Source: Daphnia pulex
Lineage: Eukaryota; Arthropoda; Branchiopoda; Diplostraca; Daphniidae
Assembly (NCBI RefSeq): GCF_021134715.1
Contig: NC_060028.1
Location: forward strand, 8,841,482-8,905,481
Direction: 5' to 3'
Length of the DNA stretch: 64,000 nucleotides
The translations under genes were made by a program, and so were the position numbers. This document shows, piece by piece, positions 4,912 to 7,676 of this stretch. Each line of letters opens with the position of its first letter. Within the stretch, counting starts at the first letter, position 1. The notes under the pieces were generated by a model that did no database searches, had not been told where the DNA came from, and saw only the letters and a list, made by a program, of their open reading frames with translations.

Positions 4912-7676
4912 ATGGCCCCAGTTGTCCCGAAAACAGATCCCATCACTATTGTGGAAGATTTGATCAAGAACAACAGAATCGCTGTGTTCAGCAAAACAAC
5001 ATGCCCTTTCTGCATTAAGGTACCGCCAGAATGATTTTCTTCTGTTTACTTGTCATTTCACGATTATTGTTGCAGGTGAAGCAACTCTTTACTGCCCTGA
5101 ACTTGGAAATTGGAGTGCTTGAAGTAGATACTAGAGGTGAGCAAACTAGGGTCAATCTAAGCTTAACTTTGGTAGTTTTAAAGAGATGGTGCTGCTGAGA
5201 TATTGATTGTTGAGTTTGTTGACATTCTGCACAGCTTGTTGCTAGGGATCACTACTCAAACATGTGTAGAGATGGGCAATGGTTGTTTGGGATGCCACTT
5301 AGGTCACAGTTAAACGAGTATAGATAATTATAAGAAATATCATTGATTTCTTTGCTTGCAGAGGATGGAGCCGACATTCAGGATGCTCTCTTGCAGAAAA
5401 CTGGACAAAAAACAGTTCCTAACGTCTTTGTTAACGGTGAGCACGTTGGAGGATGCGATAACACAATCGAAGCTCATCAGAACGGAAGACTACAGTTTTT
5501 GCTGAACAAATCTCAAGGGGGTCCTTCAGACGAAATGACCGATGACGTCAAGTATGATTACGACCTTGTAGTGATCGGAGGTGGATCTGGTGGTCTAGCT
5601 GCTTCGAAGGTAAATTTATCCTGCAAACTTAAACAGAATCATGACTGAATGTTTAACATCCTTTTTTTAGGAGGCTGCAATGTTGGGAGCCAAAGTGGCC
5701 GTCTGTGACTTTGTTGTGCCAACGCCTATTGGCACTGCTTGGGGTCTTGGAGGCACTTGTGTCAATGTAGGATGCATTCCTAAAAAATTGATGCATCAAG
5801 CTGCCATATTGGGTCAATCAGTCAGCGATGCCAAGAAATTTGGATGGGAACTACCCGAGACTGGTAAGCAGTTAAAGTAAAGATGCTCGACCGTATTTTC
5901 ATTTGGACGATCTTTTATGTAGCAACACACAACTGGAAAACAATGGTGGAAGCTATTCAGGCTCATATTGGTTCGCTCAATTGGGGCTACCGTGTTGCCT
6001 TACGAGAAAAGAAAGTGAACTACCTTAACGCTTTCGCCGAATTTGTGGATCCTCACACTCTCAAGGTAAATGTTTTATTCGTTTGATTGTTCTTTATCGT
6101 TAACGGTTTTTCTTTCTTTTTTGCAGACAACCGATAAAAAGAAAAAGGAAACTACTATTACAGCGAAATACATCCTTCTTGCGACTGGTGGTCGCCCGCG
6201 TTATCCCGACATTCCAGGTGCTCAAGAGTTTGGCATCACATCAGATGATATCTTTTCATTACCTCGTCACCCTGGCAAAACTTTGCTCGTTGGTGCCTCT
6301 TATATCGCGCTTGAGTGCGCTGGTTTCCTTGCGGGCCTTGGCATTGACTCCACCGTCATGGTGAGGATTTTTATAAAGAAATATTTCCTAGTCCCAGATG
6401 ATTATCACTAACTGTGTTACGGTTTATTCTCCGTAGGTTCGGTCAATTCTCTTGAGAGGGTTTGACCAGCAAATGGCAAACTTGATTGGCTCTTACATGG
6501 AGAAACATGGAATTCGGTTTCAACACGGATATGTCCCTACCAAATTGGAGCGCATTGAAGAAGCGTGCATTGAAAAAGGCACTCCTGCACGAATCAAGGT
6601 AATGATTAGTTACATGGCTCTGTAATAGATCCATTTTTAAATTGATGATTTTAAAATGGGAAAGGTGACTTCACAAAACGAACAAGGCGAATTGATGGAA
6701 GAGGAATATAATACCGTCCTCTTTGCTATTGGTCGCGACGCGTGCACGAACAAGATCGGCATTGAGAAAGCTAATGTCATGCTCAATCCCAAGTAATATC
6801 TAAAAAATATTCATGTTTGAACAATTTTCATTTAACACTGTTTTAAACTTAGAAATGGGAAAGTCATCTGTGACGAGAAAGAGCAATCGAATATTCCCCA
6901 CATTTATGCTATCGGAGACATTCTTGACGGCAAACTTGAGCTGACGCCGGTTGCCATTCAAGCTGGTCGTCTACTTGCCCAGGTAACCCATTCTTACATC
7001 ATTTTGAAGAAGCGACACATTAAAAAAGAAATATTGCATTTTATTCGGTCACTTAGCGTTTGTTTGGAAATGGAACTTTATTAACGGATTACGTCAATGT
7101 CCCAACTACGGTCTTTACTCCACTCGAGTATGGATGTTGTGGCCTGTCAGAAGAAGATGCTATCGACAAATATGGTGCTAAGGATATCGAAGTATATCAT
7201 TCCTATTTAACCCCGCTGGAAGTTACCGTACCAAAGAGAGATGACAACGAAGGATACGCTAAGCTTATCTGCGTTAAATCGCTTAATGTAATTTATTTCT
7301 AGTCGTTATTTGTAATTGGCTTACGTTACATCGATTTGTCTTTCATCACAGGAAAAAGTTGTTGGTCTTCATATTGTAAGCCCGAATGCTGGTGAAATTA
7401 CCCAAGGTGGAGTTCCTAATTATTAATTATTATTATTAAATTGTTAATTATTGATGAAATTACTCAAGGTTTTGCCATTGGTCTGAAACTCGGAGCCACG
7501 AAAGCGGATTTTGATAACCTGATTGGTATTCATCCTACCATAGCAGAAGTAAGATTTTTGTCGTTTTATATTGCGAAAGATCCCTTATTTTATGTTCTTG
7601 TTTGTAGGTATTCACTACACTGAAATCAACTAAGAGTTCTGGCGTTGATGTACTCCAGAAGGGTTGCTGAGGTTAA
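4912..7676 (+). CDS. Txnrd: Thioredoxin-glutathione reductase, selenoprotein
   Basis: Thirteen exons: 4912-5019, 5076-5136, 5362-5609, 5671-5863, 5923-6065, 6127-6360, 6437-6598, 6665-6792, 6853-6982, 7057-7287, 7352-7406, 7469-7548, 7608-7676. They encode 613 residues if TGA at 7668-7670 is read as selenocysteine, ending KGC-U-G before TAA. An N-terminal glutaredoxin domain (about residues 5-110) has the CPFC active site and [16 protein letters not shown]. The flavoenzyme part has the FAD motif [14 protein letters not shown], the redox pair in [13 protein letters not shown], a central NADPH domain ([18 protein letters not shown]), AIGD for FAD, and the dimer-interface HPT. The enzyme passes electrons from NADPH through FAD, CVNVGC and the C-terminal Cys-Sec to thioredoxin; the fused glutaredoxin domain suggests glutathione reduction as well. 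ATG at 4912 (AACATGG) gives a cytosolic form; the frame is open upstream and Arg-rich, suggesting a mitochondrial isoform from another first exon. Confidence 0.96.
7407..7468 (+). repeat. 62-base TGR intron flanked by a 16-base direct repeat
   Basis: TGAAATTACCCAAGGT (7393-7408) recurs as TGAAATTACTCAAGGT (7455-7470), 62 bases apart, which is exactly the intron length. The first copy gives the donor CAAG|GT and the second the acceptor CAAG|GT, so removing one repeat period restores [14 protein letters not shown], the family sequence. Confidence 0.85.

Follow-up and report, generated by a model that had tools for sequence, protein, structure and literature searches.

A selenoprotein gene with twelve introns

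The window analysed here is a stretch of 64,000 nucleotides from Daphnia pulex. It carries a gene predicted to encode thioredoxin glutathione reductase (TGR), a selenoprotein, which we modelled by hand (Table 1). The frame of this model counts 613 codons and its C-terminus reads GCUG, one TGA codon being taken as selenocysteine. The modelled protein exceeds both the TGR and the GRX_euk curated cut-offs of NCBIfam; its alignment begins at residue 20 with Schistosoma TGR and at about residue 106 with mammalian TrxR1. The identity of the gene and its exon structure are both sequence-based predictions.

Two structures may be present in the 3′ UTR. Directly after the stop codon a long hairpin is predicted (-35.2 kcal/mol over 100 bases), at which a mir-977 match in Rfam stays below threshold. 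Further downstream, a putative SECIS element displays successively ATGA, a helix, an unpaired AAA, a small apical stem and TGAT; the helix would pair 7830-7839 with 7860-7869 at 8 of 10 positions. This candidate, which we take to be form II-like, would serve the selenocysteine TGA. A search with Rfam gave no SECIS match in 7600-8100.

Table 1. Positions in the window of the TGR gene and of the features discussed
Feature	Position	Strand	Remarks
TGR (thioredoxin glutathione reductase) selenoprotein gene, predicted	4912..7676	+	13 coding exons, hand-modelled
Intron after codon 329	6361-6436		no S. mansoni counterpart, no border repeat
Intron after codon 383 (intron 7)	6599-6664		no S. mansoni counterpart, no border repeat
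Intron after codon 469	6983-7056		no S. mansoni counterpart, no border repeat
Exon 5′ of the repeat-framed intron	7352..7406	+	55 bp
Upstream copy of the 16-base direct repeat	7393..7408	+	TGAAATTACCCAAGGT; coding to 7406, then donor GT
Repeat-framed intron	7407..7468	+	62 bp, GT-AG, GTGGAG...ACTCAAG, phase 1, 81% AT
Filler between the copies	7409..7454	+	46 bp; 43 bp at 86% AT with the 19-base repeat
Branch-point-like TTAAT in the filler	7444..7448	+	A placed 21 bases ahead of the intron's last base; consensus match only
Downstream copy of the 16-base direct repeat	7455..7470	+	TGAAATTACTCAAGGT; intronic to 7468, then coding GT; one mismatch
Exon 3′ of the repeat-framed intron	7469..7548	+	80 bp
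TGA codon taken as selenocysteine	7668-7670	+	
TAA stop codon	7674-7676	+	
Predicted hairpin in the 3′ UTR	7678-7777	+	
Putative SECIS element in the 3′ UTR	7825-7873	+	

An intron framed by a direct repeat

The intron located at codon 564 is bordered by two copies of the sequence TGAAATTAC[C/T]CAAGGT, identical at 15 of 16 positions. The copies are spaced by 62 bases, which is the length of the intron, and the CAAG/GT of each copy (the slash marking the junction) holds one splice junction, the repeat being in register with both splice sites. These are the properties pointed out by the first-pass annotation, which had described at 7393..7470 an intron bounded by a 16-base direct repeat, with a period equal to the intron length and with both splice sites drawn from the same duplicated AAG/GT; we recover each of them, and also the TA-rich filler that it saw in the rest of the intron, which is AT-rich and for which no source was found. 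A repeat search stretches the match to 7390-7408 and 7452-7470 (17 of 19, with a second mismatch), the two additional matched letters being weak evidence.

When the 62 bases are removed, the protein aligns without gap to mammalian TrxR1 and to Schistosoma TGR. When they are retained, six more codons are read before a TAA within the intron, and 62 not being a multiple of three, the frame is shifted. From this continuity of the predicted protein we infer that the intron is spliced in vivo.

The border match was compared with several backgrounds. The other 11 introns of the gene, scored in the same way, show 3, 3, 5, 5, 5, 5, 5, 5, 7, 7 and 8 matches of 16 at their borders, as against 15 here. 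A scan of 264 kb (the window and the next 200 kb) covered, on both strands, 174,098 GT..AG pairs situated 40-150 bp apart, and retained border-touching repeats with at most one mismatch. Only eight pairs have a repeat of at least 13 bases: five of exactly 13, and three of at least 14, namely the TGR intron (16), a TG microsatellite (17) and a 99-bp repeat in a coding frame (14). The last, at about 8,909,263 of contig C12, was rejected as an intron since it is a coding tandem repeat lying on the other strand inside an open frame of 33-residue-type repeats, ankyrin-like in our reading. Finally, in the whole genome searched (133.19 Mb, 13 contigs), the 18-mer GATGAAATTACYCAAGGT occurs at three places with at most one mismatch, two of them being the TGR border copies, and at 16 places with at most two mismatches, versus 13 for a reversed control. 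The border match is far outside background and is not due to chance.

The filler is present in a single copy in this genome, with up to 3 mismatches allowed; a BLAST-type search, which skips simple repeats, likewise returned one copy, and no multi-copy source was found in the 13 contigs. A filler templated on the flanks was considered and rejected, the longest match of the 43-base core to 983 bases upstream and 1000 bases downstream, on both strands, being only 8 bases, at the low end of the 7-13 obtained with 500 shuffles. TTA and TAAT units are abundant in the filler. The core also contains a self-overlapping 10-base repeat, ATTATTATTA, equalled or exceeded in 25 of 1000 dinucleotide shuffles; this is a weak signal, essentially a microsatellite.

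Splice sites were scored with position weights derived from the other introns of the gene, a small sample. The donor GTGGAG scores 4.5, within the 4.4-9.8 of the 12 TGR donors and next to three others at 4.4-4.5, and the acceptor scores -0.5, the third lowest of 12. Weak sites are not unique to this intron within TGR, two acceptors being lower. New introns have been reported with weak sites in Drosophila, at least in the accessible part of PMC2809761, and the scores found here are in line with this. The intron matches yTnAy at four places, the TTAAT listed in Table 1 being one of them. As a separate observation, intron 7 ends in TGGGAAAG preceded by 6 pyrimidines in 17 positions; it has the lowest acceptor score of the 12, and its 3′ splice site appears unusually weak.

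The insertion site in flatworms and in a paralogue

The polarity of the gain is read from flatworm TGR genes and from one paralogue. Exon lengths of the flatworm genes were taken from a published table (PMC2873472), S. mansoni alone being placed on the alignment, with the first intron as an anchor. Seven of the 12 Daphnia introns coincide exactly with S. mansoni borders: the anchor and those after codons 56.1, 139.0, 203.1, 251.0, 425.2 and 591.0 (codon and phase), among which 203.1 and 425.2 adjoin one-residue alignment gaps. An eighth, at 546.0, is one codon off. No border of S. mansoni corresponds to the remaining four, 329.0, 383.0, 469.0 and 564.1, the last of which is the repeat-framed intron.

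The two exons on either side of the repeat-framed intron together make 135 nt and are the counterpart of the flatworm exon E16. According to the published lengths, this homologous exon is unbroken, at 138 nt, in E. multilocularis, E. granulosus, S. mansoni and S. japonicum, and in S. mediterranea it belongs to a single exon of 339 nt, which equals 108+93+138. By this arithmetic the intron at 564.1 is missing in all five flatworm genes, four of them being judged by exon lengths and not by sequence.

The paralogue points in the same direction. Among the best candidates of a Pyr_redox_dim search, one other gene was found in the genome, on contig C3, closest to dihydrolipoyl dehydrogenase (DLD; TIGR01350). 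It has an intron between GP and GAGE and is unbroken across the site that corresponds to TGR 564.1. On these comparisons the exon was apparently continuous before the insertion. The comparisons with flatworms and DLD exclude an intron shared with flatworms, unless it was lost there, and a gain within arthropods is not datable from them. That flatworms lack the intron is by itself no proof of a recent gain, since three further TGR introns (after codons 329, 383 and 469), which carry no border repeat, also lack a flatworm partner; these were either gained earlier in the arthropod line or lost in flatworms.

No usable table of vertebrate or insect exon boundaries was found in the literature. The human TXNRD1 exon is also of about 135 bp and continuous, and is not counted as evidence here. 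For the honey bee Trxr-1, seven introns are reported (PMC1847502). In viral contigs, the intron-free peptide pattern had no match and none of the 13 matching stretches encodes a relative. In genome contigs, the best 80 of at least 556 loci encoding relatives (at least 591 stretches) are bacterial by title, with 40-49% identity, and they have no bearing on intron presence.

Origin of the intron

Neointrons of Daphnia pulex have been ascribed to the repair of staggered double-strand breaks (Li et al. 2009; Li et al. 2014, PMC4202315, cited here and below for its accessible part). They are reported to measure 78 bp on average, with 78% AT, and to be of the GT-AG type in 118 of 120 cases (PMC4202315); a comparison of two D. 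pulex genomes gives, in the portion available, median lengths of 72 and 76 bp for gained introns, with 20 and 25% GC (PMC5427498). At 62 bp and 81% AT, the TGR intron fits these published lengths and compositions. Like the neointrons, it is a short, AT-rich GT-AG intron whose removal restores the frame and whose retention brings an in-frame stop, and it carries a copy of the exon end at its opposite end, with no source found for the remainder. Two differences stand beside these likenesses. Whereas the neointrons benefit from polymorphism and cDNA support, the TGR intron is known from the sequence of one genome. Moreover, the 33 exon-end direct repeats read as staggered-break scars measure 4-12 bp, a descriptive range of 33 cases and not a criterion of the family, and the TGR repeat, with 16 and up to 19 bases, lies beyond it (PMC4202315). 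The main text of the same paper names no thioredoxin or glutathione gene.

We think it likely that the TGR intron arose by insertion of filler with duplication of a target bearing a protosplice site, as in Daphnia neointrons. In the lineage leading to this Daphnia, 62 bp would have been inserted into a continuous penultimate coding exon of 135 nt. A break staggered over about 16 bases would have had its ends filled in, which would duplicate TGAAATTACCCAAGGT; the two copies would have been joined through some 46 bases of AT-rich filler. Since the protosplice CAAG/GT lies within the duplicated stretch, the 5′ splice site is provided by the upstream copy and the 3′ one by the downstream copy, the filler probably contributing length, AT-richness and the branch-point-like TTAAT. 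Excision of one repeat unit with the filler restores the old frame exactly, so that the insertion could be tolerated. Against this reading, the 16-base repeat exceeds all 33 published exon-end repeats. Analogy with Drosophila would also speak against it: there, flanking repeats are no commoner at gained than at conserved introns, those of at least 5 bp bordering 19 of 77 gained and 26 of 100 conserved introns in the accessible data of PMC3296678. A survey published in 2025 and covering 213 introns describes direct repeats near their borders that measure 4-30 bp, 11.4 on average; these lengths are not directly comparable with ours, since similarities down to 71% and offsets were allowed (PMC11782384, in its accessible part).

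Other origins have to be weighed. The same gain could have proceeded through another chemistry, the repeat being a target-site duplication left by a retrotransposon-type (target-primed) or polymerase-theta-type insertion with a tiny AT-rich insert. Target duplications of such insertions can exceed 12 bp. The repeat of 16-19 bp is indeed long compared with the published 4-12 bp of staggered breaks, and the richness of the filler in TTA and TAAT units would suit this chemistry; on the other side, no second genomic copy of the filler was found, its flank copies do not exceed 8 bases and no recognisable element resides in the 46 bp. We regard this variant as unlikely, though deserving some weight. 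A transposon or Introner inserted into AGGT would resemble the TGR intron in that a duplicated target with splice sites frames the insert. The TGR insert, unlike these elements as far as the accessible parts of PMC3443670 and PMC9860276 describe them, is single-copy, 46 bp long and without recognised element features, and membership of a repeated family was rejected: an origin from a repeated element fails because no second copy exists in 133 Mb at up to 3 mismatches.

Duplicated AGGT is common to the transposon model and to the model of tandem duplication of an AGGT-bearing exon segment (PMC3443670, accessible part). In the latter the intron body would be a decayed second copy of the exon, and AGGT stands here in register at both ends as this model requires, the two splice sites being derived from a single duplicated AGGT as in the introns described there. 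What the model does not accommodate is the remainder. Identity of the 62 bases is 48% with the upstream 62 (repeat included) and 27% with the downstream 62, the 43-base core is 86% AT without local match above 8 bases, and decay of the remainder alone is implausible next to an almost undecayed repeat. Tandem duplication fails because only 16-19 of the 62 bases are duplicated, the rest being AT-rich filler, and we judge it very improbable. The intron could also be an older one of arthropods or crustaceans that flatworms lack, the upstream exon end having later been copied over its 3′ end through template switch or gene conversion; this is conceivable to the extent that 4 of the 12 Daphnia introns, 564.1 included, lack an S. 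mansoni counterpart and could be older gains or flatworm losses. It demands two events, the second of which would have to place the copy exactly in line with the 3′ splice site, and the repeat is nearly intact (15 of 16), which makes this scenario quite unlikely. As for a fortuitous resemblance of the exon end to the intron end, it can invoke nothing beyond the AG/GT that the splice-site consensus makes alike at both ends, and it is hardly credible in front of the other TGR introns, the GT..AG pair scan and the 18-mer counts. An assembly artefact would likewise be very improbable.

Insertion with target duplication, our preferred reading, agrees in part with what the first-pass annotation had proposed: the gain itself, with both splice sites drawn from the duplicated AAG/GT, is well supported by the uninterrupted flatworm and DLD sites and by an AT-rich body for which no source was found. 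Repair of a staggered break, the model published for Daphnia, is the less secure part, 16 bases being more than the published 4-12 bp.

The recent origin, drawn at that stage from the single mismatch, comes out weaker than claimed. With a rate of 6e-8 substitutions per silent site per year (PMC4202315), 16 or 19 intronic sites and 4 or 5 sites assumed to be free to vary in the coding copy, a single difference would correspond to 0.8 Myr (95% 0.02-4.6) and two differences to 1.4 Myr (0.17-5.0). At both differing positions the coding copy has G/C and the intronic copy A/T, the pattern that drift of the intronic copy would produce. "Recent" is weakly constrained, 1 mismatch in 16 or 2 in 19 allowing 0.02-5 Myr. 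Consequently, fixation of the intron in the species, or its presence in close relatives too, is quite plausible, and the mismatch count does not prove novelty at the population level.

The process is already known, and the TGR intron is a strong example of it, notable for the length and the register of its scar. The origin of introns is still debated because scars are lost from most of them; the TGR intron, in the gene of a conserved enzyme, keeps a long and nearly undamaged scar that lines up exactly with both splice sites. It shows concretely how an arbitrary filler can receive both its splice sites from a duplicated protosplice site, and the locus offers a clean test for empty-site alleles in Daphnia populations. 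A more speculative proposal, to which we give little credence, is that the long duplicated target marks a second and distinct route of intron birth in Daphnia, with a machinery whose cuts are offset by about 16 bases (target-primed or theta-type joining). If such a route operated, the whole protosplice site would nearly always be duplicated and almost any AT-rich filler would be spliceable at once.
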